From assembly GCF_013004595.1 (NCBI RefSeq), contig NZ_JABEMC010000011.1:1-64000 (forward strand): a stretch of DNA of 64,000 nt, read 5' to 3'. A model generated the notes under the pieces. The model saw nothing but the letters and a program-made list of their open reading frames with translations. It did no database searches and was not told the origin of the DNA. Source of the stretch: Brevibacterium luteolum (GTDB taxonomy: Bacteria > Actinomycetota > Actinomycetes > Actinomycetales > Brevibacteriaceae). The translations under genes were made by a program, and so were the position numbers. Numbering within the stretch: position 1 is the first letter of the stretch; each line of letters starts with the position of its first letter. Shown here one piece after another: positions 4,226 to 22,143 of the stretch.

Positions 4226-5152
4226 TTATGCGCTCTTCGCCGAATCCGACTTCTTCTTCGAAGACTTCTTCCCGCCCGACTTCTTTTCGTCTGATTTCTT
4301 GCCACCGGCCTTCTTGCCGCTCGAGGACCCGCCCGACTTCTGCTTCGACCCGTCGCGCCTGCGGTCCAGCGAGGATTTCAGCGCCTCCATCAGATCGACG
4401 ACGTCCGCGTCATCGCCGTCGGCCTCACCGGCTTCGTCAGGTGTCTCACCGAAGGTCGCCTCGGTGTCGAGGGTGTCACCGGCTTCCAGCTTGGCGTCGA
4501 TGAGCTTGCGCAGCTCGACCTGGTAGTCGTCCTCGAACTCCTCGGGGGTGAAGTCCGAGGCGAACTGCTCGACCAGAGCGCCGGCGAGCTCCTTCTCCTT
4601 GCTGCTGATCTTCGCCTTCGACTTCACGCCTTTGAAGTCGACGCTGCGGACCTCATCGGCCCACAGCATGCCCTGCAGCACGAGCACCTTCCCGCGCACT
4701 CGCAAGACACCCAGCCGGGTCTTCTGCCGCAGCGAATACGTCACCACCGCGGTCCGGTCACTGTCCTCCAGCGCCTGGCGCAGCAGCAGATACGACTTCG
4801 GCGACTTCGCTGCAGGCTCCAGGTAGTAGGTGCGGTCGAGCATGATCGGATCGATCTGCTCGGTCGGGACGAACTGCACGACCTCGATCTCGTCGTTGTC
4901 ACTCTCCGGCAGCGCCTCGAAGTCATCATCAGTGACGATGACGGTGTCGTCACCGGACTCGTAGGCCTTGTCGATGTCCTTGTACTCGACCTTCTCACCG
5001 CAGACCTCGCAGCGCCGCTCATAGCGGATCCGCCCGCCATCGGCGTCGTGGACCTGGTGGAAGGACACGTCGTGATTCTCCGTGGCGCTGTAGGCCTTGA
5101 CGGGAACGTTCACGAGCCCGAAGGTGATGGCGCCGGTCCATATTGCTCGCAT
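4226..5152 (-). CDS. ku: Ku DNA end-binding protein of non-homologous end joining
   Basis: 308 residues beginning MRAIWTGAITFGLVNVPVK, the canonical start of bacterial Ku. It forms a homodimeric ring on double-strand ends and recruits LigD. The core (residues 1 to about 250) includes a CxxC pair (RRCEVCGEK). The C-terminal 60 residues are a lysine/serine/glycine tail (repeats such as KKSGGKKSSKKK), as in Ku proteins whose basic tails aid sliding and LigD interaction. Upstream in-frame codons exist, but homology starts at this ATG. The start is 30 bases from that of divergent ligD, and TAGAAT 7 bases before the ATG suggests a leaderless mRNA. Confidence 0.95.
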   Translation of the reverse strand: MRAIWTGAITFGLVNVPVKAYSATENHDVSFHQVHDADGGRIRYERRCEVCGEKVEYKDIDKAYESGDDTVIVTDDDFEALPESDNDEIEVVQFVPTEQIDPIMLDRTYYLEPAAKSPKSYLLLRQALEDSDRTAVVTYSLRQKTRLGVLRVRGKVLVLQGMLWADEVRSVDFKGVKSKAKISSKEKELAGALVEQFASDFTPEEFEDDYQVELRKLIDAKLEAGDTLDTEATFGETPDEAGEADGDDADVVDLMEALKSSLDRRRDGSKQKSGGSSSGKKAGGKKSDEKKSGGKKSSKKKSDSAKSA

Positions 5153-5165
5153 AGCATGGATTCTA
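5152..5165. promoter_or_regulatory. Back-to-back -10 boxes of ligD (+) and ku (-)
   Basis: Plus strand TAGCAT at 5152-5157 suits ligD, giving a transcript starting near 5164 with AAAGGGA before ATG 5183. Minus strand TAGAAT (complement of 5160-5165) is 7 bases from the ku ATG, predicting a leaderless ku mRNA. Both promoters fit within about 30 bases, so polymerase binding should be mutually exclusive. Confidence 0.5.
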
Positions 5166-5182
5166 CGCAGAAAGGGACCACG

Positions 5183-7612
5183 ATGGCGCCAGCTCGCAAG
5201 AAGTTCCAGGTCGGAGACCGCACGCTCACCGTCTCCAATCTCGACAAGGTCCTCTACCCGGAGACCGGCACCACGAAGGCCGACGTCATCCGCTATTACC
5301 TCACCGTCGCTGACGTCCTCATCCCGCAGATCACCGGCCGGCCGGTCACCCGCAAACGCTGGGTTGACGGGGTCGGCACCGCCGCCGAGGCGGGACATGC
5401 CTTCTTCCGCAAAGACTTGGAGGACTCGGCCCCGGACTGGATCCCCACCGGCACGATCAAGCACAAGAGCGGCACCAACACCTATCCGGTGGCCGAGGAA
5501 CCGGCCGTACTTGCGTGGTTCGGCCAGGTCGCAGCCCTCGAGCTGCACACCCCGCAGTGGCGCTTCGGCCGCAACGGCCAGCCGCGCAACCCCGACCGCC
5601 TCGTCCTCGACCTCGACCCCGGCCCGGGAACCGACCTCACCGACTGCGCCACCGTCGCCGCCTGGTGCCGGGAGATCCTCGAGGACATGGGCATGCCGAC
5701 CTACCCGGTGACCTCAGGTTCGAAGGGCATCCACCTCTACGCCGCTCTTGACGGTCGGCACAACTCCGAGCAGATCTCCGACGTCGCCCACGAACTCGCC
5801 CGCGCACTCGAAGCTGACCACCCCGATGAGGTCGTCTCGACGATGAAGAAGACCGACCGCACCGGCAGGGTCTTCCTCGACTGGAGTCAGAACAGCGCCT
5901 CGAAGACCACTGTGAGCCCCTACTCGCTGCGCGGTCGTCTGCGCCCCACCGTCGCCGCCCCGCGCACTTGGGATGAACTGGCCGACCCGGACCTTGCGCA
6001 GCTGGAGTTCGAGGACGTCATCGCACGCGTTGAGGAGGGTCTGGACCCAATTGCGGACCTCGGTGCTGACCGGTTGGAGACCTACCGGTCGATGCGCGAC
6101 GCCGCCAAGACCAGCGAACCGGTTCCGGCACACAGGCCAGCCGACACCTCGAAAGTGGAGGCCCCGAGCTTCGTCATCCAGGAGCACCACGCCAGCAGCC
6201 TGCACTGGGACTTCCGGCTGGAGCACTCCGGAGTGCTCGTCAGCTGGGCGGTGCCCAAGGGCGTGCCGCTGAAGCACAACGTCAACCGGTTGGCCGTCCA
6301 GACCGAGGACCACCCGCTCGAATACGGTAGCTTCGAGGGCACGATCGCCAAGGGCGAGTACGGCGCCGGAGAGGTCACCATCTGGGATGCCGGCACGTAT
6401 GAGCGCGAGAAATGGCGTGATGACAAGGAGATCATCGCCGTCCTCCACGGCCGCGAGGACGGCGGGCTCAAAGGCATCCCACGCCGGTTCGCACTCATCC
6501 GCACGAAGGGGATGGACGGGAAGAACACGTGGCTGCTGCAGCTGATGAAGGACCAGCCCGGCGACGGGAACGGTCCCGCGCCCGAGGCGGGGGAGCGCGG
6601 CGAGAAGGCGGCTCCTTCTGCAGGTGGCCAGGACTCCGGCGACGTTCCTGCGCTCAGCGACATCCCCGCCCCGATGCTCGCCCGCGCGGGCTCGGAGGCC
6701 GACATCCGCCTCGGGAAGGGTGCTGGCGAGACGTGGGTCGCGGAGATGAAATGGGACGGCTACCGGATGCTCGCCGGCGTCGGGACCGGGGGAGTGGTGC
6801 TCGCCAGCCGCAACGGCCAGGACATGACAGAGCAGTTCCCGCAGGCAGGCGAGCTCACTGAGTTGCTGGAGGGCACCGGGATCCTCGACGGGGAGCTCGT
6901 AGCGCTCGACGGGGACGGGAGGCCGGACTTCAGTCTGCTGCAGGCGATGCTCAGCGGCGAGGACGACGTGCCCGATGACGCTGAGCTGCGCTATATGGTC
7001 TTCGACATCCTCGCCCACAACGGCCGCTCGCTCATCCGCGAAACCTACCGGGCCCGCCGGAAGATCCTCGCCGAGGTGCTTGATGAAGGCGAGTACGTCA
7101 CCGTGCCGCCGGCGCATGAGGGTCCACTGGAGGCGGCGATCAGGGCCAGCCGGGCGCTCGGGCTCGAAGGGGTCGTCGCCAAGCGCGCCGATTCGGTCTA
7201 CCTGACCGGCCAGCGCGGCTCGGCGTGGATCAAGCTCAAAACGCAGCTGCACCAGGAGGTCATCGTCATCGGCGCCCGCGACGGGAAGGGCGCCAGGGCC
7301 GGCGGGATCGGTTCGCTGCTTGTCGCCGTACCTGATGATGACGGAGAGTTGCGCTACGCCGGGCGGGTCGGCACGGGATTCACCGACCGGCAGCTGGCTG
7401 AGATCGAGGCGAAGCTGCGGAAACTTGAGCGCAAGACCCCGCCGGTCGACGATGTGCCGACCGAAGACCAGGCTGATGCATGGTGGGTGAGGCCGACGCT
7501 CGTCGCCGAGGTGACGCTGGCCGGGCGGACACGGCAGGGCCGGGTCCGGCAGGCCGCCTGGCGCGGCTGGCGCGATGACAAGGATCCTGACGAGGTGCGG
7601 TGGGAGGTGTGA
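5183..7612 (+). CDS. ligD: Multifunctional NHEJ DNA ligase LigD (polymerase-phosphoesterase-ligase)
   Basis: 809 residues, domain order Pol-PE-Lig as in Mycobacterium. The N-terminal primase-like polymerase domain (about 1-290) carries the metal-binding motif VLDLDPGPG near residue 140. The 3'-phosphoesterase domain (about 320-450) shows EHHASSLHWDFRLEHS near 334. The ATP-dependent ligase domain (about 480-809) has the nucleotidyl-transfer motif MKWDGYR near 522 with the AMP-accepting lysine. Together with Ku it fills, trims and seals double-strand breaks. ATG 5183 is chosen because AAAGGGA precedes it at proper distance; an in-frame ATG at 5156 has no RBS. The next gene starts 6 bases after the stop. 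Confidence 0.96.
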   Translation: MAPARKKFQVGDRTLTVSNLDKVLYPETGTTKADVIRYYLTVADVLIPQITGRPVTRKRWVDGVGTAAEAGHAFFRKDLEDSAPDWIPTGTIKHKSGTNTYPVAEEPAVLAWFGQVAALELHTPQWRFGRNGQPRNPDRLVLDLDPGPGTDLTDCATVAAWCREILEDMGMPTYPVTSGSKGIHLYAALDGRHNSEQISDVAHELARALEADHPDEVVSTMKKTDRTGRVFLDWSQNSASKTTVSPYSLRGRLRPTVAAPRTWDELADPDLAQLEFEDVIARVEEGLDPIADLGADRLETYRSMRDAAKTSEPVPAHRPADTSKVEAPSFVIQEHHASSLHWDFRLEHSGVLVSWAVPKGVPLKHNVNRLAVQTEDHPLEYGSFEGTIAKGEYGAGEVTIWDAGTYEREKWRDDKEIIAVLHGREDGGLKGIPRRFALIRTKGMDGKNTWLLQLMKDQPGDGNGPAPEAGERGEKAAPSAGGQDSGDVPALSDIPAPMLARAGSEADIRLGKGAGETWVAEMKWDGYRMLAGVGTGGVVLASRNGQDMTEQFPQAGELTELLEGTGILDGELVALDGDGRPDFSLLQAMLSGEDDVPDDAELRYMVFDILAHNGRSLIRETYRARRKILAEVLDEGEYVTVPPAHEGPLEAAIRASRALGLEGVVAKRADSVYLTGQRGSAWIKLKTQLHQEVIVIGARDGKGARAGGIGSLLVAVPDDDGELRYAGRVGTGFTDRQLAEIEAKLRKLERKTPPVDDVPTEDQADAWWVRPTLVAEVTLAGRTRQGRVRQAAWRGWRDDKDPDEVRWEV

Positions 7613-11210: not shown

Positions 11211-12842
11211 TCAGCGCCGACGGCGCCGGCCGGTGCCGAAGATCCCGCGGGCGATCTCGCGGGCAGCGGTGCGGGTGAACTGCCGGAACTCGCGGGAATT
11301 CACCACCTGCTCGAGCATCGTCCGATCCTGTCTGCCGGGCGTCGTCGACCGGCTGCGGCTGGTTCTGCCCGCCCCTGCGGTGTCCGGCAGCGGGATCCGA
11401 GCCTCATCGTGTTCGGCATCCGGCCCGCTGCCTGGCGCCGGCTCCGGGCCCGAGGTGCCCTCCGCCTCGGCGTCGGCAGCACCGGCTTCCAGGCGCTGGG
11501 TGAGGATCTCGCGGGCCGATTCCCGGTCGATGCGCTCACCGTAGGTCGCCTGATGGGCAGAATCGGTTACGAGCTGTTCCATCAGGGCCGGGTCGCTGGG
11601 ACCCATCTTCGAGCGCGGGGCGAAGATCTTCGTCGCAGCGACCGGTGTCGGTGCCCCATCGGGATCCATGACGGTTACGATCGCCTCGCCGGTGCCCAGC
11701 GTGGTGAGCAGCGCACCGAGGTCGACATCAGTCGTCGGGAAGGTCGACACCGTCTCCTTGAGCGCTTTGGCCTCCTTGGGAGTGTGGGCGCGCAGCTGAT
11801 GCTGGATGCGCGAGCCGAGCTGGGCGAGCACCGCCTCGGGAACGTCGGTGGGCTGCTGGGTGACGAAGAAGACGCCCACACCCTTCGAACGGATAAGGCG
11901 CACCGTCTGGGCGACCGAGTCGAGAAACGCCTTCGACGCGTTGGCGAACAGCAGGTGGGCTTCGTCGAAGAAGAACACGAGCGTGGGTTTGTCGGCGTCA
12001 CCCACCTCGGGCAGGGTTTCGAACAGCTCGGCGAGGAGCCACATGAGGAAGGTCGAGAACAGGGCCGGGCGGTTCTGCACGGCCGGCAGCTCGAGCATCG
12101 AGATCGTGCCGGCAGCCCCCTGGGTGCGCAGCAGGTCGGAGATGTCGTATTCGGGTTCGCCGAAGAACGCGTCGGCACCCTGGATCTCCAGGTTCGCGAT
12201 CGCGCGCAGGATCACCCCAGCCGAGGCGGTGGAGACTCCGCCGATGTCCTTCAGGTCCGCCTTGCCCTCCGGGGAGGTGAGGAAGGACAGCACCGCCTTG
12301 AGGTCGGAGAGGTCGAGCAGCGCCAGGCCTGCGGAGTCGGCGTAGTGGAAGATGAGGCCGAGGACGGACTCCTGGGTGTCGTTGAGGCCCAGGACTTTCG
12401 ACAGCAGGAGTGGTCCGAAGGAGCTGACGCTCGCACGCATCGGGATGCCGGTGCCCTCTCCGCCGAGGGAGTAGAAGGTCACCGGGGAGGCCTCGGGCTG
12501 CCAGTCCTGGCCGTTGGCCTGGGTGCGGGCGGTGAGCTTCTCGGACGGCTCACCGGGGCTCGCCATGCCGGACAGGTCGCCTTTGAGATCGGCTGCGAAC
12601 ACGGGAACGCCGGCAGTGGAGAGCGCCTCGGCAAGCACCTGGAGGGTGATCGTCTTGCCGGTGCCTGTGGCACCGGCGATGAGGCCGTGGCGGTTGAACA
12701 TCGCCAGCGGGATGCGCACGCGCACATCAGGGGCGGGGGTGTCGCCGTCAAAGGCGGAGCCGAGGTCGATGGCGGGTTCGTCGAAGGTGTATCCGGCGCG
12801 GATCGCTTCAAGGGCCTGCGTGTCGCTCATGAGGTCATTCAA
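11211..12842 (-). CDS. HerA-like ATPase, DUF853 family
   Basis: 543 residues. Walker A GATGTGKT at residues 57-64 and Walker B near 285 (TLVFFFDEAHLLFANAS), followed by sensor-type segments IRSKGVGVFFVTQQPTDVP and LGSRIQHQLRAHTPKEAKAL, define the DUF853 branch of HerA/FtsK-type ATPases. Such proteins are hexameric translocases or helicases; the actinobacterial role is not established. The last 100 residues are Pro/Ser/Arg-rich and end in a basic tail (GTGRRRRR). Start at ATG 12842 or the in-frame ATG 12830; neither has a strong RBS. It is monocistronic, divergent from the FitAB operon. Confidence 0.88.
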   Translation of the reverse strand: MNDLMSDTQALEAIRAGYTFDEPAIDLGSAFDGDTPAPDVRVRIPLAMFNRHGLIAGATGTGKTITLQVLAEALSTAGVPVFAADLKGDLSGMASPGEPSEKLTARTQANGQDWQPEASPVTFYSLGGEGTGIPMRASVSSFGPLLLSKVLGLNDTQESVLGLIFHYADSAGLALLDLSDLKAVLSFLTSPEGKADLKDIGGVSTASAGVILRAIANLEIQGADAFFGEPEYDISDLLRTQGAAGTISMLELPAVQNRPALFSTFLMWLLAELFETLPEVGDADKPTLVFFFDEAHLLFANASKAFLDSVAQTVRLIRSKGVGVFFVTQQPTDVPEAVLAQLGSRIQHQLRAHTPKEAKALKETVSTFPTTDVDLGALLTTLGTGEAIVTVMDPDGAPTPVAATKIFAPRSKMGPSDPALMEQLVTDSAHQATYGERIDRESAREILTQRLEAGAADAEAEGTSGPEPAPGSGPDAEHDEARIPLPDTAGAGRTSRSRSTTPGRQDRTMLEQVVNSREFRQFTRTAAREIARGIFGTGRRRRR

Positions 12843-12981
12843 GCACAGCAGGCGCGCGCAGCAGCGGCGATCGCTTCAGGGGCCGGTAGGAGCACACCAT
12901 GCGGTTCTCTCTGCGTGGGCCGGGAGTCTGCGTTGGCTCTGGTTCTTGCCTGGTTGACTCTGGTTCTCAGCTGCAGACAGG

Positions 12982-13001
12982 TGATATCATGAGTGATATC
13001 A
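12982..13001 (+). promoter_or_regulatory. FitA operator: two TGATATCA palindromes over the -10 box
   Basis: Two perfect 8-base palindromes TGATATCA at 12982-12989 and 12994-13001 are 12 bases apart centre to centre. TATCAT (12985-12990) is a good -10 box inside the first. GGAGGT at 13005-13010 precedes the antitoxin start. Tandem palindromes over the promoter are what a ribbon-helix-helix antitoxin would bind for autorepression. Confidence 0.6.
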
Positions 13002-13018
13002 AACGGAGGTGATGCGTG

Positions 13019-13252
13019 ATGGCTGCGATAGTGGTGCGAGGACTCGAGGAATCGGTCAAATCCGCCCTGGCTGCGCGGGCGCGGAAGCACGGGCGCTCCA
13101 TGGAAGCTGAAGTGCGCGAGATTCTGACGCAGGCGGCCAGCAGACCGAATATCGGAATGGCACTGATGCAGGCCGCTCGGGAAGCTGGAGGCGTTGATGA
13201 GCTTCCCGTTCCCAGCAGGGACGAGCGCGCACGCTCGGTGGACTTCGCGTGA
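13019..13252 (+). CDS. fitA: FitA-like ribbon-helix-helix antitoxin
   Basis: 77 residues beginning MAAIVVRGLEESVKSALAAR. The segment IVVRGL, ARARKHGRSMEAEVREIL is the RHH/Arc fold of FitA-type antitoxins (FitA_like: hyper-short strand then two helices). The C-terminus (LPVPSRDERARSVDFA) is the toxin-neutralising tail. ATG 13019 is used because GGAGGT is 8 bases away; a GTG one codon earlier is possible. Its stop overlaps the toxin start by 4 bases (GTGA), so the antitoxin is made first. It probably represses its own promoter through the palindromes upstream. Confidence 0.9.
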   Translation: MAAIVVRGLEESVKSALAARARKHGRSMEAEVREILTQAASRPNIGMALMQAAREAGGVDELPVPSRDERARSVDFA

Positions 13253-13668
13253 TCGTCTTAGACACGAACGTCATCTCGGAGCTGTTCCGTCCGCTGCCGA
13301 ACCCGCGTGTGGTGGCGTGGCTCGAATCGCTGTCTGGTGAGGTTGCGATCACTGCGATCACGGCTGCCGAGCTGTTGGTCGGTGTTCGCCGTCTGCCCGG
13401 CGGCAGACGTCAGACGCAGCTTGCACAGAGTGTCGAAGCTGTCCTGGACCAATACCGGCGGCTCAATGCTGTGCTGCCCTTCGACGTCGCCGCTGCATCT
13501 CATTACGCAGAGCTCGTCGCCAATCGTAAAGCTTCGGGATCTCCCATCAGCATGGCTGACGCGGAGATCGCGGCGATCTGCCGCACTCATCTCGCAACGT
13601 GCGCAACGCGCAACGTCAAGGACTTCCAGGGAACTGGTGTCTCCACGATCAATCCGTGGGAAGCCTGA
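13249..13668 (+). CDS. fitB: FitB/VapC-type PIN-domain toxin
   Basis: 139 residues from GTG 13249, beginning MIVLDTNVISELFRP. The PIN-domain acidic residues are visible: Asp5, Glu41 (TAAELLVGVRR), Asp104 (ISMADAEIAA) and Asp125 (RNVKDFQG). PIN toxins of this type are Mg-dependent ribonucleases inhibited by the cognate antitoxin. Coupled by a 4-base overlap to fitA. All catalytic residues are present, so the module looks functional. The RNA target is unknown. Confidence 0.92.
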   Translation: MIVLDTNVISELFRPLPNPRVVAWLESLSGEVAITAITAAELLVGVRRLPGGRRQTQLAQSVEAVLDQYRRLNAVLPFDVAAASHYAELVANRKASGSPISMADAEIAAICRTHLATCATRNVKDFQGTGVSTINPWEA

Positions 13669-13836
13669 ACAGCTCTCTCAGTCGGCGGTGGAAGGCTCGG
13701 CGGCCGTCGTGCCGGATGGGTGCGACGAGATCAGTCTGTCCGGCAGGCTGTCGAGCACTGGGGCATCATGGAGGCAGTCTGAGGGCACATGTGCGCCCGT
13801 CGACGATGACGATCAGGCTGGCGAGGAGACTGTTCT

Positions 13837-14835
13837 GTGGAGGCTGGGACACATGCCCGAGAAGCGGGCCGCATCAGGTCGCCAAGGCGCGTCCTCGTGC
13901 TCCTGAATCCTCTGGCCGCTGACCGGCACCCCGGGTGTGCGACCGCGCTCGCCGCAGCTGCGGCGGACCTTGAGCTGTTCGTTCCGACCGGTGCTGACGC
14001 CCAGCTCCAGTTCAATGCCGCGGCCGAGGCGGTTGAGGCCGGTGTCGATGCGGTGGTCGTTTGCGGCGGTGACGGCACAGTGGCCGCCGGTTTCGCCCTG
14101 ACTGCTGGCACCGGCATCCCGCTGGGCATCGTGCCGGCAGGCACCGGCAATGATTTCGCCCGCGCCGCCCGGATCGAACGCGGCGACCCGGTCGGCAGCC
14201 TGTCCCGGCTGCTCGATGGGCTGCGGGACGGTGCGCTGCGGGACGGTGCGCTGCGCAGCTGCACGGTAGATGCGCTGCACATGACGGTCACGACTCCGGA
14301 CTCAGGCCAGTCGCACGTATGGGTAGCGAACTCCGCCAACATCGGCTTCGACGCGCTCGTCAACGCACGCGCCAACACCTACCGCCGGCTGCCTGTCACC
14401 GGACGCTACCTCGTGGCGCTCCTGCGCGAACTCCCAGCATTCCGCCCGGCACGATTCCGCATCTCGCGCGACGACCAGCCGCCTCAGAATCTGACGGCCA
14501 CGCTCATCTGCGTGCAGAACGGGCCCTGGATCGGCGGCGGCATCCCACTGGCCCCCGCAGCCGACCCCAGGTCCGGGACCGCCGTCATGAGCACAGTCGA
14601 CAGGATTCCCCGCCTCCTGCTGGCAGGCCTCTTCCCGCTCATCTACCTGCGCGCCCACCGACTGTTGGCACCGCTGCGGCAGCATCGGGTCGAACGCGTC
14701 CGGGTCACAGTCCCCAGCAGCGTGCCGGTCTACGCCGACGGCGAGGAGATCCTCCCCAGCAGCCACGACGGGGCCGAAGTGGAGATCGCTGTCATGCCCC
14801 GGGCTGTCCGCCTCATCCAGGGTCTGCCCGACTGA
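13837..14835 (+). CDS. YegS/diacylglycerol-kinase-like lipid kinase
   Basis: 332 residues from GTG 13837 (GAGGAG 9 bases upstream). After a short basic start, RRVLVLLNPLA opens the kinase fold, and GGDGTVAAGFAL plus PAGTGNDFARA give the nucleotide-binding and catalytic motifs of the DagK_cat superfamily. The C-terminal beta domain ends VPVYADGEEI, including the conserved DGE. These enzymes phosphorylate diacylglycerol, sphingoid or related lipids at the membrane. A 15-base in-frame tandem duplication lies near residue 130. DUF488 follows 28 bases later on the same strand. Confidence 0.9.
   Translation: MEAGTHAREAGRIRSPRRVLVLLNPLAADRHPGCATALAAAAADLELFVPTGADAQLQFNAAAEAVEAGVDAVVVCGGDGTVAAGFALTAGTGIPLGIVPAGTGNDFARAARIERGDPVGSLSRLLDGLRDGALRDGALRSCTVDALHMTVTTPDSGQSHVWVANSANIGFDALVNARANTYRRLPVTGRYLVALLRELPAFRPARFRISRDDQPPQNLTATLICVQNGPWIGGGIPLAPAADPRSGTAVMSTVDRIPRLLLAGLFPLIYLRAHRLLAPLRQHRVERVRVTVPSSVPVYADGEEILPSSHDGAEVEIAVMPRAVRLIQGLPD
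14221..14250 (+). repeat. Two tandem 15-base units inside the lipid-kinase gene
   Basis: CTGCGGGACGGTGCG occurs twice in a row (14221-14235 and 14236-14250), encoding LRDGA twice. Length is a multiple of three, so the frame is kept. Confidence 0.85.
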
Positions 14836-14863
14836 CAGCCTCCGTGTGGGGCATCATGGATGT

Positions 14864-15217
14864 ATGAGTGAGATCACCATTGCACGCATCTACGACGACA
14901 ACGAAGGCGGCTACCGCGTGCTGCTCGACCGGCTCTGGCCGCGCGGCATCAGCAAGGAGGACGCGGATCTGGATCTGTGGGCCAAGGACGTCGCCCCGAG
15001 TGATGATCTGCGCACGTGGTTCCACAACGGCGGAGACTACAGCGAATTCTCTAAGCGCTACCGCGCTGAGCTCAAGGACAACGAGGAATTCGACGACTTC
15101 GCCGCCACGCTGGCCGAGCAGAAGAACATCGTGCTGCTGACCGCGTCGAAGGACCCCGAGCACAGCCACCTGAGCGTGATGAAGAAGATCCTCTCCTCAC
15201 GCAGCACGAAGAGCTGA
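14864..15217 (+). CDS. DUF488 family protein (YeaO-like)
   Basis: 117 residues from ATG 14864. LDRLWPRGISKEDADLDLW and WFHNGGDYSEFSKRYRAEL are the signature segments of the short DUF488/YeaO family; the later NIVLLTASKDPEHSH completes it. Function is unknown; a cytosolic protein possibly related to metal or oxidative stress in other bacteria, which the sequence does not show. It follows the lipid kinase closely and may be read through from it. Confidence 0.88.
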   Translation: MSEITIARIYDDNEGGYRVLLDRLWPRGISKEDADLDLWAKDVAPSDDLRTWFHNGGDYSEFSKRYRAELKDNEEFDDFAATLAEQKNIVLLTASKDPEHSHLSVMKKILSSRSTKS

Positions 15218-15277
15218 GCTGCGGCTGCATCGCCGGGGCCGGCCGTCAGGCAGCCGGCAGTCGGGGCAGCACGCAGT

Positions 15278-16720
15278 TCAGGCGAAGAACTCCTGGCTCG
15301 CAACACTCGGGGCATCAGGGCCGATGACGTCGATGAGCACATCGGCATCCCGGTAGGAGGCGTGCCGGGTCCACCCGTCGATGCCGGCCAGCGCCGCATG
15401 GGCGCTTTCAGCGCTCCGGTAGCCACCGGGCACCGGGTGCCGCCAGTGCGCGGCCAGCACCACCCCGCCTGAGCGCAGGCTCGCCGCCGCCGAGGTGAGG
15501 AACCCTGCGAATGACTCGTCGCTGAGGTAGTAGGCCAATTCGCTGAAGACAATGAGGTCGAAGCTGCCGGTCGGCCAGTCCTCGATCCCGGCACAGCGCA
15601 CCTCGACCGAGGCGCCGGCACTGCTGGCGCGCAGCCGCTGCCGGGCGGCATGGACGGCAGCAGGCACGACATCAGCGCAGATGAGCTCCTCACACCGGGC
15701 GGCGAGCTTCTCACTCAGCATCCCGATTGAACAGCCGGGCTCGAAGACCCGGTCGAAGCGCGGCTTGGGCAGCATCGCCATGATGAGCTCAGCGCGCCTG
15801 CGCTCGTACCACCGCTGGCCGACCGACCACGGGTCATCAGCGTGCCGGTAGAGGTCATCGAAGCCGGCCGAGCGGTGGACGAAGACCACCTGCCGCTCCC
15901 GGCACATCCGCTCCCGCACCCTCGCCGGCAGAACGACCGCCTCGGGCCCGGCGGCCGGATCCCGGTCGACGGCGACCCCGTAGTCGAGACTGACCTGGGA
16001 GCGGAAGCAGTCCAGCGCGGCAGGCAGCGACGCCCGTAGCCGCTCGGGCACATCGAGGCGCACCGCAGCTGCCGCGAGCTCATCGGGCACGTCTGCCGGC
16101 GCGGTGTGCTGCCACAGCCACACCGGATATTCGACGACCGGGCAGGTCGGACGGGTCGCAGCGGCGGCGAAGGCGGCCCGGCCAGCCGCGTCGTGATCGG
16201 GGTGGCCGTCGGTGCGCAGGGGAGCAGCGATCCACGTGCCGGTCGGCAGCTCATCGAGGAGTTCAGCCAGCCGCCCGGCAAGCGTCTCCTCATGCTCGGC
16301 AACTGCGCCGTCGGGGATCGACAGCCGGGTGACCGGCGGGACGGGACAGCCGGCGGCATCAGCGAGAACCTGCAGGGCCGCGTCAGTTTCGCCCCGGCGG
16401 ATGGCGGCGAGCTCGGCCGGATCGACGGCCTCCGGCGGGTGTGAGCCCTCGCCGTCGGTGACCGCAGCCAGGCGGACCAGGATACCGGCATCGAGGGCGG
16501 CAGCGAACAGCCCGCCGGCGCCGGCGATCTCATCATCTGGGTGTGGAGCGACGATGAGCAGTCCCGGCAGCGCCTCGGCTCCCGGCCAGGCGGGCAGCGC
16601 GGCGGCGCAGGTGTCGATCTCCGTGCCCGAGGCGGCAGGCACCTGGGCGCCGGAGAAGGTGCGCTCGCCGGCAGACTCAGCGTCGGCTGCGGGACCGGTT
16701 GCGGGGGTGGGCTCAGTCAT
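15278..16720 (-). CDS. Fused PIG-L deacetylase / NodS-like SAM methyltransferase
   Basis: 480 residues from ATG 16718-16720. Residues about 50-270 are a PIG-L (LmbE) zinc deacetylase: APHPDDEIAG at 59-68 and HPDHD at 173-177 carry the zinc ligands and catalytic Asp. Residues about 285-480 are a NodS-type methyltransferase: motif I VFEPGCSIGMLSEKLAARC near 326-343, acidic Asp350 after the second strand, then FDLIVFSELAYYL. The combination suggests removal of an N-acetyl group from a sugar followed by N-methylation. Its start overlaps the end of the acyl-CoA-dehydrogenase-like gene by 8 bases; together with the GT2 gene it forms a tight three-gene operon. Confidence 0.9.
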   Translation of the reverse strand: MTEPTPATGPAADAESAGERTFSGAQVPAASGTEIDTCAAALPAWPGAEALPGLLIVAPHPDDEIAGAGGLFAAALDAGILVRLAAVTDGEGSHPPEAVDPAELAAIRRGETDAALQVLADAAGCPVPPVTRLSIPDGAVAEHEETLAGRLAELLDELPTGTWIAAPLRTDGHPDHDAAGRAAFAAAATRPTCPVVEYPVWLWQHTAPADVPDELAAAAVRLDVPERLRASLPAALDCFRSQVSLDYGVAVDRDPAAGPEAVVLPARVRERMCRERQVVFVHRSAGFDDLYRHADDPWSVGQRWYERRRAELIMAMLPKPRFDRVFEPGCSIGMLSEKLAARCEELICADVVPAAVHAARQRLRASSAGASVEVRCAGIEDWPTGSFDLIVFSELAYYLSDESFAGFLTSAAASLRSGGVVLAAHWRHPVPGGYRSAESAHAALAGIDGWTRHASYRDADVLIDVIGPDAPSVASQEFFA

Positions 16721-17717
16721 GGGCGCCGGTGAGTCCGAGGAGCCGATCCCAGGCTGCAGTCGGAGCAGTGTCATCGTTGTGTTCGGTGATCTGGGCGGCG
16801 ATGGCAGCCTCGTCGGCTTCGGCGTGGGTCTGGCGGATGTAGACGCTGAGGTCGGCCACCAGCTGCGCGTGCTCGCCGTCGCCGCACAGCGGCCCGGCAC
16901 CGAGTGCCCGGCCGACGCGTTCGATGACATCAGCTGCCATCCGGTCGATGCGGGTGCGCACCGCCAGCGCGCGAGCCATCATCAGCCCCGAGGAGTTGCC
17001 GGGGTCGGCGTCGATGAACGCGGCAGTCGACTCCAGCAGCGCCCAGCCGGCGGCAAGCTCGGCTGCGACCGCACCGGCCTGCGCGGCGATGAGCGGGGAG
17101 ACGCCCTCACGCTGTGCCTTGGCCAGCAGCGGTTCGGCCACGGCGCGGGCGCCGCCGTACCAGCAGGCTGCGACTCCAGCACCGCCGTGCCAGAAGCCGG
17201 GCCGGTCGAGATAGTCGCGGTGGCTGCCGAGCCGGCGAGCCGGCACCGTGTCGAACTCGACCCAGCCGGAGTCGCTGGCAGCCATTCCGACAGCAGGCCA
17301 CGTTTCGGGCACCGCACGCACGCCGTCCTGGCGCAGATCGACGGCGAAGAACCCGACCTGCCCGGATTCCTCTCGGGCGGTCACGAGCGCATGGGTGCAC
17401 ATGCCGGCCCCTGAGCACCACGGTTTGGTGCCGGTCAGCGACCAGGCGCCTGCCGCCTCGGCGGCGGTGAGCTGCGGCTGCGGCGGCTCAGCCGCCCATA
17501 CGCCCCAGTGGCTGCCCGGTTCGACGAGGTCGGGTGCGCCGAGGTCGGTGGTGATCGCCTGGGCATCGGCGTGGGCTTCGATGAACCGGGCGGTGACGAG
17601 GTCCGCGCGGGCGAGGCGCGCCAGCGTGGCGAACCGGGTGAGGGTGTCGCCGCTGGCGGGGTGGGGGAGTGCGTGGCCGGTGAGCTGGGCGGCGAGCCGG
17701 CCGCGGGTCTGGGTCAT
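16713..17717 (-). CDS. Acyl-CoA-dehydrogenase-like flavoprotein
   Basis: 334 residues. SLTGTKPWCSGAG and the later WVEFDTVPARRLG, GGARAVAEPLLA and GRALGAGPLCGDGEHAQLVA correspond to the flavin- and dimer-contact regions of acyl-CoA dehydrogenases. It is shorter than typical family members (about 380), mainly at the N-terminus, and the end (ADLSVYIRQTHAEADEAA) matches the branch found in glycan clusters rather than beta-oxidation. I could not identify the usual catalytic glutamate. Overlaps both neighbours (4 bases with GT2, 8 with the PIG-L fusion), so it acts in the same pathway, perhaps oxidising a sugar-linked acyl or amine substrate. Confidence 0.82.
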   Translation of the reverse strand: MTQTRGRLAAQLTGHALPHPASGDTLTRFATLARLARADLVTARFIEAHADAQAITTDLGAPDLVEPGSHWGVWAAEPPQPQLTAAEAAGAWSLTGTKPWCSGAGMCTHALVTAREESGQVGFFAVDLRQDGVRAVPETWPAVGMAASDSGWVEFDTVPARRLGSHRDYLDRPGFWHGGAGVAACWYGGARAVAEPLLAKAQREGVSPLIAAQAGAVAAELAAGWALLESTAAFIDADPGNSSGLMMARALAVRTRIDRMAADVIERVGRALGAGPLCGDGEHAQLVADLSVYIRQTHAEADEAAIAAQITEHNDDTAPTAAWDRLLGLTGAHD

Positions 17718-18400
17718 GAGATGAGCTCCTTGAGGTCGTCGGACAGGCCGCCGGGTGAGCGGCCATCGGTGCGGCGGGAGGTGGTGACGGGGATGTCGAG
17801 CGGCCAGCGCACGTCAAGGCCGGCGGCCTCAGCGCGGGTGACGAGGTCGACGTCCTCGTGCACGGCCAGGGCTGCGAATCCGCCGAGGACGTCGTAAGTG
17901 CGCGGGTGGAAGGACAGGTTGGCGCCGTGGATGTGGCGGTGGCCGGCCGGGGTGATGCCGGTGGCATACAGGGCCGACCAGCGGGTGCCCAGCGTGTCCG
18001 GCAGCTGCGGGTCTGCCGGGGGTTCGAGGCAGACGGTGCCGGCGATGAGTTCGGCGCCTTCGGCGCTGAGCTCGAGGAGGCGGCGGCACCACGAGGTGGG
18101 TACGGCGCTGTCGGCGTCGGTGGTGGCCAGCCAGGCGGCCTGTGGTGCGGTGGCGCGCAGGTGGGCGAATCCGGCGTGCCGTGCCGCGCCGACCCGGCCG
18201 AGGCGGACCGGCAGCACGTCGGCGCCGTGGGCGCGGGCGGTGGCCGCGGTGGCATCGGTGCAGGAGTCGGCGACGACGAGGACGCCGAGCCGGCAGCCGG
18301 CCGCCGCCGCCGAGGCGTTGAGGGCATCGAGCGCGCGGGGCAGGAGGGCTTCCTCGTTGTGGGCGGGGATGACGACGTGCAGCTGCGCGGAGTCCGTCAC
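17714..18400 (-). CDS. Family 2 glycosyltransferase
   Basis: 228 residues from GTG 18398-18400, chosen because AGGAGGG lies 7-13 bases upstream; in-frame ATG at 18460 lacks this. LHVVIPAHNEEALLPRALD opens the GT-A fold, ATTDADS is the DxD-type metal/nucleotide-sugar motif, and GANLSFHPRTYDVLGGF followed by VHEDVDLV is the acceptor/ED motif. No transmembrane helices are evident, so it is probably a soluble or peripheral transferase. First gene of the operon with the ACAD-like and PIG-L/NodS proteins; WcbI starts divergently 148 bases away. Confidence 0.9.
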   Translation of the reverse strand: MTDSAQLHVVIPAHNEEALLPRALDALNASAAAAGCRLGVLVVADSCTDATAATARAHGADVLPVRLGRVGAARHAGFAHLRATAPQAAWLATTDADSAVPTSWCRRLLELSAEGAELIAGTVCLEPPADPQLPDTLGTRWSALYATGITPAGHRHIHGANLSFHPRTYDVLGGFAALAVHEDVDLVTRAEAAGLDVRWPLDIPVTTSRRTDGRSPGGLSDDLKELIS

Positions 18401-18548
18401 CTGTCCATCCCTCCTGCCACAGTTTTCCCGGGAGCGGGTGGACCATTCCCAGGGCGTCAAGGAACCTTGTACTGTGATCCTACCTGCTCATTTCCGTCAT
18501 CGGCAGCACTGCGGCCGTGGTGATGATGAGCTGACCTGAGGAGATGCC

Positions 18549-19517
18549 ATGGGCAGACGACAGCACTACGCAGCGTTCTACGAACTCGCCCCCGCACCGT
18601 GGGCAGACGACCGGCCGAAGGCGGTCGTGGTGGGCAACTGCCAGGCGGAGTCGATGCGCATCCTGCTGGAGTCCAGCGGGTGGCTCACCACCATGCGGAT
18701 CCCGCCGATCTTCGAATGGACCGAAGAGGACACCGCCCGGGCTCGGGCGCTCATCGAGGGCATCGATGTGCTCGTCATCCAGCCGGTGCACGCCGACTAC
18801 CGCGGCATGCCGTGCGGCACCGAACAGCTCGAAGCCCTCCTGCGCCCCGAAGCGGGCAGCGTGCGGATCCCCTCCCTGCGCTACAACGGGCTGCACCCGT
18901 ATCACGCGATCGTGCGCGACCCGCAGGATTCGAGCCTCGACCCGCCGGTGGTGCCGTATTCGGACCTGCGCACCATCATCGCCGCTGCCGCCGGCCGCGA
19001 CCCGGCAGATGCCGCCGCCTGGCTGGCCGGCGCGCCACCGCTGAGCCCGCAGGCCATCACCGCCGCGGCTGCGGAGTCGGTCTCCCAGCTGCGCCGCCGG
19101 CAGGACGCCCACGGCACCGTCGTCATGGATGACGTGCTCGCAGCCGCCCCGCACTGGCCGACGATCAACCACCCCGACACCGCTACCCTCATGACCCTGG
19201 CCGAACGCACGCTGCAGCGTGCCGCGGAGGTCACCGGCGCCGAGGAGGTGGTCACCCCTGTGCATCCGGGCCGGGAGCTGCTCGGCGGGCTGGAGGCACC
19301 GGTGCGGATGGAAGCGGCAGCGGTATTGGCTGCCGAACTGCGGCAAGGAGCCCGGGAGGACGCGTGGCAGTCCCGTGACTGGGATGCGCCGGTCAGCGAG
19401 GACCAGGTGGCTGCCGAGCAGGCGGTGTTCTGCCAGCGGCCTGGGTTCGTCGAGGCGGCGCTGGACCGCTGCCGGGAGCGCATCGAGATCCTCGGGCTTG
19501 ACGCCCTGCTGCCGTAG
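18549..19517 (+). CDS. WcbI-family polysaccharide biosynthesis putative acetyltransferase
   Basis: 322 residues starting MGRRQHYAAFYELAPAPW. The segment KAVVVGNCQAESMRILLES holds the GNCQ motif that defines WcbI proteins, followed by DVLVIQPVHADYRGMPCGTE and SLRYNGLHPYH. WcbI is implicated in capsule acetylation in Burkholderia; the acceptor here is unknown. The GAGGAG RBS 5 bases before ATG decides the start. It is transcribed divergently from the GT2 operon and is most simply the fourth enzyme of that pathway. Confidence 0.88.
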   Translation: MGRRQHYAAFYELAPAPWADDRPKAVVVGNCQAESMRILLESSGWLTTMRIPPIFEWTEEDTARARALIEGIDVLVIQPVHADYRGMPCGTEQLEALLRPEAGSVRIPSLRYNGLHPYHAIVRDPQDSSLDPPVVPYSDLRTIIAAAAGRDPADAAAWLAGAPPLSPQAITAAAAESVSQLRRRQDAHGTVVMDDVLAAAPHWPTINHPDTATLMTLAERTLQRAAEVTGAEEVVTPVHPGRELLGGLEAPVRMEAAAVLAAELRQGAREDAWQSRDWDAPVSEDQVAAEQAVFCQRPGFVEAALDRCRERIEILGLDALLP

Positions 19518-19527
19518 GCGCGCCGAG

Positions 19528-20118
19528 TCAATCGGCGTCGGTTGCGCGTTCAGCGCGGTCGAGATCGGCCGGGGTGTCGATGTCGATGAGCTCAGACTCG
19601 GTGGCGGGGATGAGGGTGACCTCCCGGCCGCGGTAGAGCGCCTTGACCGGCAGCCCGACAGCAGACCCCAGGCCGGCTACGGCATCCCGGAGCACCGCCT
19701 CGGGCCAGGCCGCACACAGAAACTGCACCCGCCCACTCGGGTCGACGGCTGCAGCCGGAGACGCGGCCGCGGCAGACTCGCGCAGCCGGTCGAGCAGTGA
19801 CGCGGTGATCGCCGGCATGTCACCGGCGAGCACCAGGATGACCCTCTCACCTGCCGGCAGCGCTGCAAGAGCGCAGCTGATGCCGTGCAGCGGCCCGCCG
19901 AACGCTGGCTCTTCTGCCACCACCTGCACCCGGGTGAGCGCGCTGGCATCGATGCCGGCAGCCGAGCCGCACACGATGATCTCGCCGACCCCGGCGGCCT
20001 CAACGGTGGCGAGGAGTGAGGCGATAACCGGTGTTCCGGCGATCTCGATGCCCGGGGTGTGTCGGCCGCTGAAGCGGCTCGAGCGCCCGCCGGTGAGGAT
20101 GATCGCCGCAGTGTCCAT
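19528..20118 (-). CDS. mobA: MobA-like nucleotidyltransferase (molybdenum cofactor guanylyltransferase family)
   Basis: 196 residues. IILTGGRSSRFSG is the NTP-binding loop, VLAGDMPAITASLL the DMP metal motif, and ELIDIDTPADLDRA the usual C-terminal motif. The conserved lysine normally found a few residues after the loop (DK) is absent; the sequence there is GRHTPGIEI. Activity or specificity may therefore differ from true MobA. No other molybdopterin genes are in the window. It converges with wcbI (10 bases apart) and starts with a leaderless-type promoter. Confidence 0.75.
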   Translation of the reverse strand: MDTAAIILTGGRSSRFSGRHTPGIEIAGTPVIASLLATVEAAGVGEIIVCGSAAGIDASALTRVQVVAEEPAFGGPLHGISCALAALPAGERVILVLAGDMPAITASLLDRLRESAAAASPAAAVDPSGRVQFLCAAWPEAVLRDAVAGLGSAVGLPVKALYRGREVTLIPATESELIDIDTPADLDRAERATDAD

Positions 20119-20124
20119 ACCGCT

Positions 20125-20130
20125 AGCCTA
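20125..20130 (-). promoter_or_regulatory. -10 box (TAGGCT) for leaderless mobA-like mRNA
   Basis: Complement of AGCCTA, 6 bases from the ATG at 20118. Confidence 0.45.
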
Positions 20131-20361
20131 CGGGCGCATCCCAGCCTGCGGCGAGAACCGCCTCGGGCGCGGACCGCCTGGCACGCCGGGAGCGCAGGAT
20201 GTCCACGCCCAGCTCGTCGCGGCGTTCACCTCAGCCGCGCCGATCGTGCTGACCTTCGCCGCTCTGGACCACCACCGGCCCTACGGCACACCTCGGCATC
20301 ATCGACGGCGCCTGCACTGAGTACCCCGGCCAGCGCTGCACATCTCACTTGGTCGGGCAGG

Positions 20362-20475
20362 GCGCTGCTTTTCGTCTTTCCGGGCATGAGGCTGCTGCGC
20401 TCCGACGGCCGTCACCTCGGCGACAGGATCGCCGACACCCAGGTGGTCCCGGTCGGGAGTACAATCGCGCCATGA
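20362..20475 (+). pseudogene. Possible C-terminal remnant of an RDD-type membrane protein
   Basis: One frame reads LLFVFPGMRLLRSDGRHLGD then RIADTQVV before a stop at 20473-20475, similar to the end of RDD-family proteins (HDRLAGTVVV-type). No plausible N-terminal half or start is visible in 20131-20360, which otherwise holds nothing I recognise. It overlaps the promoter of the next gene. Low certainty. Confidence 0.25.
20460..20465 (+). promoter_or_regulatory. -10 box (TACAAT) for leaderless YdeI-like mRNA
   Basis: TACAAT is 6 bases before ATG 20472, so the transcript likely begins at the A of the start codon. Confidence 0.5.
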
Positions 20476-20756
20476 GTGAGGATCTGCCCGGCGGTGCCGT
20501 CCATCCGCTGCCTGAGGATCTGGGCGCAGAGCTCACCGCGCACGCCCAGGCGCGTGAGGCGTGGCTGGACATCACGACTCTGGCGCGCAACGAGTTCATC
20601 TGCTGGGTCGAAGACGCCAAGCAGGCCGCAACGCGTGAGCGCCGCATCCGGCGCACCCGCGAGGAGCTTGAGGATGGGATGCGCCGGCCGTGCTGCTGGC
20701 CCGGCTGCAAGCACCGCGAGCGCACCGGCAGGCCACCGGCCGCCCAGGGCAGCTGA
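20472..20756 (+). CDS. YdeI/OmpD-associated family protein (short)
   Basis: 94 residues. LTAHAQAREAWLDITTLARN and FICWVEDAKQAATRERRIRR match the C-terminal YdeI/OmpD-associated domain (PF13376), in which short proteins lacking the N-terminal DUF1905 are common. Biochemical role unknown; some relatives were linked to bacteriocin or peptide resistance. It ends CCWPGCKHRER, with two cysteines outside the domain. Leaderless promoter upstream; it ends 3 bases from the convergent MgtC gene. Confidence 0.82.
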   Translation: MSEDLPGGAVHPLPEDLGAELTAHAQAREAWLDITTLARNEFICWVEDAKQAATRERRIRRTREELEDGMRRPCCWPGCKHRERTGRPPAAQGS

Positions 20757-20759
20757 ACC

Positions 20760-21461
20760 TCAGTCGTTCTCCTCGGTGGCGGCGATGACCCGGTAGACGC
20801 CGGGCAGTTCGGTCAGCTCTTCGACCAGCGTGCCGGACTTGAGATCCGGGCCAGGGGTGAAGCGCAGCGACGCCTGGATGATCGTGCCCTTCCGGCCGTG
20901 CAGGCGCTGCGTGTGGGTCAGGGCCGCCTCGTATCCCAGCTCCGAGGCGGTGGCGAGGATGTCGCGCAGCACACCGTGGCCGTCAGCGTAGCGGATCGTG
21001 ATGTAGCGCGAATGGCGCGGATCGCGCATCCGCTTGACTGCGAAGGTCACGACGAACACGGTCAGCAGGTACAGTCCGACCGTCAGCGCCGCAACAGCCG
21101 GCATGCCGGCACCGCAGGCCATCCCGACCGAGGCGGTCACCCAGATGCTGGCTGCGGTCGTGAGCCCGGAGACGCTGTTCTGGCGCACGAAGATGACACC
21201 GGCACCGAGGAAGCCGATGCCGGTGACGATCTGCGCGGCGATCCGGGCGGGATCGCGGGTGACGTCCTCAGCTGAGGCGAAGCCGTAGACCGACACGAGC
21301 GTGAAGAGGGCAGCGCCCAGGCCGACGAGGATGTGCGTGCGCGCTCCGGCGCTCTTGTGACGCAGCTCGCGTTCGACGCCGATGATCGCCGAGAGCACGA
21401 AGGCGGCCACCAGCAGCACGGCCTGGGTGCCCAGGTCGGCGGAAACGAGATCAATGTCCAC
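20760..21461 (-). CDS. MgtC/SapB-family membrane protein
   Basis: About 233 residues from GTG 21459-21461 (GAGG 8 bases upstream). The N-terminal part has four or five membrane helices with IIGVERELRHKSAGARTHIL, VTGIGFLGAGVIFVRQN and GLTTAASIWVTASVGMACG, all typical of MgtC/SapB. The C-terminal ACT-like cytosolic domain (about 150-233) contains RYITIRYADGHGVLRDIL. Such proteins affect Mg homeostasis or virulence through ATP synthase or transporters; the mechanism is not visible here. It starts 25 bases after the DJ-1 gene and is probably in its operon. Confidence 0.9.
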   Translation of the reverse strand: MDIDLVSADLGTQAVLLVAAFVLSAIIGVERELRHKSAGARTHILVGLGAALFTLVSVYGFASAEDVTRDPARIAAQIVTGIGFLGAGVIFVRQNSVSGLTTAASIWVTASVGMACGAGMPAVAALTVGLYLLTVFVVTFAVKRMRDPRHSRYITIRYADGHGVLRDILATASELGYEAALTHTQRLHGRKGTIIQASLRFTPGPDLKSGTLVEELTELPGVYRVIAATEEND

Positions 21462-21486
21462 GTCGGTGTCCTCACTCCCTGTTCTG

Positions 21487-22137
21487 TCAGCTGCCGTCGC
21501 CGAGGCGGTGGGCACCGGTGCCGGGGACGAGTCCGTTGCGTGCAGCGAAGGGGTCCCAGCCCGGGTCGGCATCGACGTCGAGTTCGACGAAGTCGCAGGC
21601 CTCACGGGCCTGCTCCGGGCTCGTAAGCGATGCGATGAGGGCAGCGGTCATGTCCATCCCGGCAGCCACACCCGAGGATGTCCAGCGGCTGCCGTCTTCG
21701 ACCCAGCGGGCGACCGGCTGCCAGTCGACATCGCTTCCGAAGCCCGTCGCCCACCGGTAGGCGCGCTTGTTCGTCGTCGCCCGGTGCCCATCGAGCAGGC
21801 CGGCCGCTGCCAGCAGCGCCGATCCGGTGCACACCGAAGCCACCACCTCGGCGTCGGCACAGTACTCCCGCAGCCAAGTGAGGAACCCCTCCTCGGTGAC
21901 GAGCCGGCGCGTGCCGAAGCCGCCGGGAACAAGTACGATATCGGCTGCCGGGGCTGCGGTGCAGGCGGTGTCGGGCACGATCCGGGTGCCCTGATGGCTG
22001 GCGACCGGCTCACCGGTGGGCCCGAGCATGACGATGGTGAAGTGATCGGGCAACACGCTGAGCAGCTCGACGGGCCCGAAGACATCGAGCACTTCGAACC
22101 CCTCGAACAGGACGACGGCGACAGTGCGGTTCTCCAC
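21487..22137 (-). CDS. DJ-1/PfpI-family protein
   Basis: About 217 residues. VVLFEGFEVLDVFGPVELL and the nucleophile elbow VASVCTGSALLAAAG (catalytic Cys in CTG) are typical of the isonitrile-hydratase-like/AraC-associated branch of DJ-1/PfpI; NKRAYRWATGFG and TSSGVAAGMDM complete the pattern. The substrate cannot be inferred. TAGACT lies 6 bases before GTG 22137 (codon 2 of an alternative ATG start at 22140), so a leaderless GTG start is favoured. Followed closely by the MgtC gene. Confidence 0.87.
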   Translation of the reverse strand: MENRTVAVVLFEGFEVLDVFGPVELLSVLPDHFTIVMLGPTGEPVASHQGTRIVPDTACTAAPAADIVLVPGGFGTRRLVTEEGFLTWLREYCADAEVVASVCTGSALLAAAGLLDGHRATTNKRAYRWATGFGSDVDWQPVARWVEDGSRWTSSGVAAGMDMTAALIASLTSPEQAREACDFVELDVDADPGWDPFAARNGLVPGTGAHRLGDGS

Positions 22138-22143
22138 CATCCC

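Follow-up and report, generated by a model that had tools for sequence, protein, structure and literature searches.

The window analysed here, a stretch of 64,000 nucleotides from Brevibacterium luteolum (contig NZ_JABEMC010000011.1, positions 1 to 64,000), carries a compact cassette for four activities: a GT2 glycosyltransferase, a flavoprotein of the acyl-CoA dehydrogenase (ACAD) fold, a PIG-L deacetylase, and a NodS-family methyltransferase. The comparison across genomes provided good support for this quartet as one conserved unit and supported a stress context for it, more strongly in gram-negative bacteria than in actinobacteria. We propose, with a probability of about 0.55, that the cassette makes a small N-methylated amino-sugar glycoside in the response to osmotic, desiccation, or oxidative stress.

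The cassette genes lie on the minus strand. The GT2 gene (17714-18400; PF00535, E 2e-13) starts with GTG behind an AGGAGG stretch, within an open reading frame (ORF) that opens at 18460. It overlaps by 4 bases the ACAD-like gene (16713-17717), in which only the ACAD middle domain was matched (PF02770, E 4e-12), and this gene overlaps by 8 bases the gene of a fused protein (15278-16720, with an open frame reaching 16930). Both Pfam domains of the fusion are found in one frame: the PIG-L deacetylase half (15881-16720; PF02585, E 3e-21, with zinc-site motifs) and the half belonging to the NodS family of S-adenosylmethionine methyltransferases (15278-15880; PF05401, E 2e-13), the latter proposed to be an N-methyltransferase. 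Divergent from these genes, on the plus strand, is the accessory gene of a WcbI-family protein, a putative acyl- or acetyltransferase (18549-19517; PF18588, E 1e-56). Coordinates and Pfam matches confirmed the gene placement, the two overlaps, and the divergent WcbI gene reported in a preliminary description of this DNA. Compared with the NCBIfam models, none of the cassette proteins reached a model's cut-off. The closest named relative of the fusion, from Brevibacterium gallinarum, is 90% identical and has the same fused frame, so an assembly error in this genome (2.97 Mb, 21 contigs) does not explain the fusion.

Component profiles detected all four members within 3.5 kb of the methyltransferase or the ACAD gene at 119 of the 139 loci, which span several phyla. 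These loci comprised 80 named loci, 12 plasmid stretches, 7 relatives, and 40 loci of the actinomycete class, with one place counted twice (L104 and L195); short loci (L001-L010), a lone ACAD gene without a cassette (L098), the nodS and trifunctional controls (L110-L114), and own-genome ACADs and short copies (L116-L157) were excluded. The named loci were the best 80 of 366 relatives obtained with the fusion as the query, a choice favoring adjacency of deacetylase and methyltransferase. They included Pseudomonas, Acinetobacter, Caballeronia, Janthinobacterium, Halomonas, Rhodococcus, Antrihabitans, Mycolicibacterium, Actinoplanes and relatives, Geodermatophilaceae, and Nesterenkonia, and showed two main gene orders, the ACAD and glycosyltransferase genes adjoining the PIG-L and methyltransferase genes in most. 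Because the fusion query favors adjacency of its own halves, 296 actinomycete genomes were searched with the ACAD profile alone. It was present in 53 genomes (30 of 115 genera), and among the 40 of these places that were retrieved, all four members were found in 32 and at least three in 38. Within the genus the distribution was patchy (strong ACAD match in 13 of 25 genomes). The recurrence of the quartet across phyla argues against a chance grouping. The compact cluster of the preliminary description has thereby become a cassette conserved across phyla, the neighborhood survey proposed there having found the neighborhoods conserved. At 27 of the 139 loci, every one of them actinobacterial, a single frame encodes both the PIG-L and the methyltransferase domain, and elsewhere the two are encoded by neighboring genes; this pattern of fusion and adjacency supports consecutive deacetylase and methyltransferase steps, as had been suggested from the fusion in the window.

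The preliminary description did not include the occurrence of the cassette in Pseudomonas, Acinetobacter, Rhodococcus, and other bacteria, nor the trehalose, catalase, and LigD genes that accompany it. The cassette is inserted in or beside trehalose and alpha-glucan stress islands (otsAB; treYZ-malQ-glgX), although its enzymes are not trehalose enzymes and it also occurs without such islands. In Comamonas antarctica and C. endophytica the order is otsA-ACAD-PIGL-MT-GT-otsB (MT, methyltransferase; GT, glycosyltransferase). In Pseudomonas paraversuta, the ACAD gene comes directly after a series of GH13, GH77, GH13, and CBM48 (GlgX-type) genes, and GlgB- and TreS-type genes lie beyond, the identities of TreZ, TreY, GlgX, GlgB, and TreS being taken from GH13-type Pfam domains and gene order. 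Of 45 Pseudomonas-type loci, 18 had a GlgX match ending no more than 90 bp from the ACAD domain, 23 had LigD, and 41 had a trehalose, LigD, or catalase marker. As a control, GlgX was counted in 14 such genomes, between 4.7 and 6.7 Mb in size, of which 11 had been chosen for a GlgX-linked cassette and 3 for one without this link; one strong copy was present in 13, and two copies in the other one.

Similar surroundings were found on plasmids, with catalase, cassette, and otsBA on one from Acinetobacter ursingii; otsB, GH65, PIGL, MT, GT, and an ACAD gene visible only to the profile on one from Legionella lytica; and catalase near the cassette on those from Sulfitobacter and Cupriavidus. Among 40 actinomycete genomes, 9 (from 6 of 26 genera) have a large catalase gene no more than 10 kb away from the cassette, compared with 0.30 expected when genomes are treated as independent; the genome cross-counts and 10-kb distances in this work were tallied by hand. 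In one Micrococcales genome, catalase, ACAD, PIGL/MT, WcbI, X330, GT2b, and GT genes form a single run of overlapping ORFs, with ACAD and GT seen by the component profiles and not by Pfam. In the window, as in B. gallinarum, LigD lies 7.7 kb from the cassette. Separately, the cassette ACAD gene was detected on 19 Acinetobacter plasmid records (L093 and L096 among them), and otsBA was beside the cassette in both of those examined and catalase in one.

Published data place an equivalent gene string of Acinetobacter in the same context. In the excerpt of PMC5660220, A. baumannii ACICU_02432-02435 (glycosyltransferase, SAM methyltransferase, LmbE, and ACAD-related protein) are marked as one operon. 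In RNA-seq of two colistin-dependent mutants, expression of these genes was 31- to 62-fold lower, and otsA, otsB, and a catalase gene fell with them; they are among 33 genes down more than 10-fold in both mutants. In A. nosocomialis and A. baumannii, according to excerpts of PMC9020721 and PMC6240043, the same string lies next to the gene of a blue-light receptor. No function is assigned to it in the excerpts of these three papers.

The GT2 protein has 228 residues and no membrane segment by hydropathy (no hydrophobic stretch over 1.6). Its AlphaFold 2 (AF2) model had a predicted local distance difference test score (pLDDT) of 94 and a GT-A fold, with WrtF as the best structural match (Z 22.4, root-mean-square deviation [rmsd] 2.1, 181 residues aligned), followed by K4CP, TarS, and TarP. 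Profile and fold place the protein among soluble-domain GT2 enzymes, and no NodC model was present among its NCBIfam matches up to E 1. The PIG-L half scored 76.9 bits against PF02585 (gathering threshold 28.2), and its HPDDE and HxxH zinc-site stretches were kept in 30 of 30 rows. Its profile matched N-deacetylases of GlcNAc-type units, the closest solved relatives being diacetylchitobiose deacetylase, BshB1, the teicoplanin pseudoaglycone deacetylase, and MshB. The half scored below the NCBIfam cut-offs of the thiol-pathway equivalogs (14 versus 224 bits for MshB, 41 versus 195 for BshB2, and 28 versus 182.5 for BshB1). MshB, BshB1, and teicoplanin Orf2 deacetylate a GlcNAc-type unit after a glycosyltransferase has acted. 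The cassette shares with these systems a PIG-L deacetylase; it differs in being without cysteine ligase or antibiotic scaffold genes and in having the PIG-L domain fused or coupled to a methyltransferase. A second PIG-L gene was observed downstream of the cassette in five Pseudomonas loci (L041, L044, L046, L060, and L083).

The methyltransferase half scored 51 bits against PF05401 (gathering threshold 24), so the family named in the preliminary description stands; identity with NodS itself does not, with 57.8 bits against the cut-off of 300 for the NCBIfam equivalog NF041650. A methyltransferase profile holding no NodS row matched PDB 4isc (E 1e-70) and NodS (3ofj, E 1e-26), as well as the gentamicin N-3'' methyltransferase, which acts on an amino sugar, and phosphoethanolamine N-methyltransferases. 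Given the matches to these N-methyltransferases, methylation of an amine is the natural guess for the cassette enzyme. The entry 4isc, a solved protein named only 'Methyltransferase', is much closer to the cassette methyltransferases than any other structure matched, so structural information on them may already be available. In the phylogenetic tree, which was rooted at the midpoint and only partly supported, with long and unsure Legionella and Sulfitobacter rows, the cassette methyltransferases were separated from a branch of NodS and the trifunctional proteins described below (97/89), and the fused forms fell in more than one place. An origin of NodS inside the cassette family was rejected, NodS and the trifunctional proteins having their own branch.

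The ACAD-like protein scored 46.5 bits against PF02770 (gathering threshold 33.3) and did not match PF00441 in Pfam; its AF2 model (pLDDT 89.6) showed a full ACAD fold. The top five Foldseek matches included KijD3, TdsC, and DnmZ, and VIA-align put dehydrogenases and monooxygenases level (isovaleryl-CoA dehydrogenase, Z 29.6, rmsd 2.5, 309 residues aligned; TdsC, Z 28.8, rmsd 2.8, 310 residues aligned). The catalytic glutamate of the YEGT motif was kept in 6 of 8 of the host's own ACADs in the alignment. In the cassette proteins, glutamine was found at or next to this place in 39 of 39 and glutamate in none, with S, H, T, C, or Q as the alternative one place on, and a histidine followed two places past the glutamate position in 38 of 39. 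A G-x-K-x-W-C-S-G-A stretch aligned with that of DszC. With the group D flavin monooxygenases and sugar N-oxygenases (DszC/TdsC, KijD3, and DnmZ) the cassette protein shares the ACAD fold and the CSGA stretch, but it is shorter, with about 20% identity or less, and ordinary ACADs tie with them structurally; the active-site histidine of DszC was not clearly matched. We lean to an oxidase or monooxygenase. Downstream of the split cassette of A. baylyi is a flavin-reductase-like gene (L074 12857-13831) whose product could be a partner of the ACAD-fold enzyme; of 115 loci, 1 had such a gene near the cassette.

The WcbI protein, which the preliminary description had counted as part of the cluster, turned out to belong to a second module that co-occurs with the cassette. 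Its family assignment is clear (192.2 bits against a gathering threshold of 29.2 for PF18588), and the gene was present in 14 of the 296 actinomycete genomes; the cassette is also found in 11 of these 14 (Fisher p 6e-7; at the genus level, 9 of 10, p 2e-5). The two lie within 10 kb of each other in 4 of these 11 (the host genome, G298, G182, and G164), and likewise in Rhodococcoides trifolii and B. gallinarum. The usual partners of WcbI are X330, a weakly GT4-like protein present in 13 of the 14 WcbI genomes, and GT2b, which accompanies WcbI and X330 in the loci examined; the cassette was found in 13 of 17 X330 genomes. In the host genome, WcbI lies beside the cassette and apart from X330 and GT2b, which are on another contig, divergent from GT4-like and GT28-like genes (contig C1, about 109,360-115,070; L202 5364-11070). 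In genome G003, the WcbI, X330, and GT2b genes adjoin one another, some 58 kb away from the cassette. WcbI as a core cassette gene was rejected on this distance and on its presence in only 2 of the 80 named loci (best 80 of 366). According to the excerpt of PMC4104973, WcbI of Burkholderia pseudomallei is a capsule-cluster protein that binds CoA and had no activity in assays. The WcbI protein of the window probably acts in a linked glycan pathway.

In the pathway that we propose from the enzyme families, the soluble GT2 enzyme would transfer an N-acetylhexosamine to a small acceptor, the PIG-L enzyme would take off the acetyl group, the NodS-family enzyme would methylate the freed amine, and the ACAD-fold flavoprotein would oxidize the product, perhaps at its nitrogen atom. 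The second module (WcbI, X330, and GT2b) may acylate and extend this product in some actinomycetes, the host included. As a long shot, the product could be an N-oxide or nitrone glycoside, with the sugar amine N-methylated and then oxygenated, serving beside trehalose as a chaperone resembling trimethylamine N-oxide and extended by the second glycan module in some actinomycetes. The preliminary description knew of no product described for such a combination in actinobacteria, and none was found, nor a described pathway, in the titles and abstract starts of the open-licence literature searched; the excerpts of PMC5423435, PMC12029717, and PMC7143919 name no such cassette.

The Nod-factor logic first suggested for this cluster did not hold and was rejected on deacetylase class, glycosyltransferase type, and methyltransferase clade. 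A cassette making lipo-chitooligosaccharide signals of the Nod-factor kind would fit the joining of a deacetylase to a NodS-family methyltransferase in a single chain. The cassette methyltransferases and NodS have a DPW motif in common. NodB, however, is a CE4 polysaccharide deacetylase and NodC a membrane-bound chitooligosaccharide synthase, and NodA, an acyltransferase, is a further component of Nod-factor biosynthesis; nodS belongs to the nodABCSUIJ genes. The cassette instead pairs its methyltransferase with PIG-L, ACAD, and a small GT2 protein; CE4 was not among the Pfam matches of the four window proteins, and no NodA family was detected by Pfam among the ten window proteins at 13,249-22,140 that were scanned. 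No PIG-L or ACAD gene was found in three nodS stretches, the methyltransferase branch is distinct, and the cassette is spread through bacteria without known symbiosis. We consider such signaling very improbable. Trifunctional proteins of Sulfitobacter and Gloeothece (L111 4366-7446; L112 3958-7434) come nearer to Nod logic than the window cassette does. A single chain combines glycosyltransferase, NodS-like methyltransferase, and deacetylase in these proteins, but the deacetylase is annotated as a polysaccharide deacetylase, they pair with NodS on the tree, and no ACAD gene is beside them in the two stretches. The mycothiol and bacillithiol pathways, in which a glycosyltransferase is followed by a PIG-L deacetylase, suggest another product, a low-molecular-weight antioxidant or redox cofactor. 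The kinship with MshB and BshB1 and the catalase linkage in actinomycetes are consistent with this idea, whereas the quartet includes no cysteine ligase or thiol-adding gene and its glycosyltransferase is of GT2 type, unlike MshA and BshA, which are GT4 enzymes; we regard it as improbable.

We give similarly little credence to a true acyl dehydrogenase whose product would be a modified glycolipid or acyl sugar. The structural tie noted above leaves room for it, and the catalytic base may sit elsewhere, as in isovaleryl-CoA dehydrogenase; the constant loss of the YEGT glutamate to glutamine, the nearly constant histidine, the missing PF00441 match, and the stretch shared with DszC speak against it. 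A surface glycan or glycolipid (exopolysaccharide, capsule, or lipooligosaccharide), made or decorated by the cassette and acylated by WcbI, is a more substantial alternative that we still consider unlikely. It agrees with the capsule-cluster setting of WcbI in B. pseudomallei (PMC4104973, excerpt) and with a UDP-galactopyranose mutase gene near the cassette in D. gobiensis. On the other hand, trehalose, LigD, or catalase genes rather than polysaccharide genes lie nearby in most of the range (such as Pseudomonas and Acinetobacter), the GT2 enzyme lacks a membrane segment, and no flippase or polymerase was among the families recurring in 90 loci. The small stress-related glycoside remains our preferred product, and several points weigh against it. 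The company that WcbI keeps with X330, GT2b, GT4-like, and GT28-like genes, in a module co-occurring with the cassette, could also point to a larger surface glycan. Twenty of the 139 loci are without one or two members nearby (11 without a near glycosyltransferase, 6 without a near PIG-L match, 2 without methyltransferase and glycosyltransferase, and 1, at a contig end, without ACAD), the five Caballeronia loci being without a glycosyltransferase. Among 71 actinobacterial loci, a trehalose, LigD, or catalase marker was near the cassette in only 13, which makes the link to stress a partial one in this group, and in Brevibacterium it is weak, the single LigD gene within 10 kb being its one marker. 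The colistin-mutant data are one co-regulation result from two strain pairs, and RpoS-like motifs were not enriched upstream of 60 gram-negative loci (loose, 8 versus 5.1; strict, 0 versus 0.5). The chemistry is read from enzyme families, and the product and acceptor are proposed on that footing.

If the glycoside is indeed made, it would be a second, overlooked protectant beside trehalose, from a unit present in 53 of 296 actinomycete genomes and in many Pseudomonas and Acinetobacter, and the metabolite would be expected in stressed wild-type cells and gone after clean deletion. The occurrence of the cassette by otsBA on mobilizable Acinetobacter plasmids, one of them with catalase, may bear on survival on dry surfaces.

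Upstream of the GT2 gene, the inverted repeat CAAGGNNCCTTG (18458-18469) is a possible operator; it occurs at the same place in B. gallinarum (L011) and genome G003 (L101), and at four sites in the host genome. A sigma-B/F-like motif was present in 7 of 67 actinobacterial upstream stretches compared with 0.24 in dinucleotide shuffles (largest 2), a count that includes related genomes and some poor versions of the motif; this putative promoter signal is only a lead. Outside the cassette, the window encodes the context protein LigD (5048-7612, plus strand; found by tblastn, with prim-pol, 3'-phosphoesterase, and ATP ligase domains by Pfam), a PIN-domain protein that may be the toxin of a toxin-antitoxin pair (13249-13668; Pfam), and, convergent with WcbI, a MobA-like nucleotidyltransferase (19528-20118; Pfam, under all NCBIfam cut-offs shown). 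In five Rhodococcus loci (L020-L024, about 11,480-14,820), genes for a RidA-like protein and a flavin amine oxidase come after the cassette.

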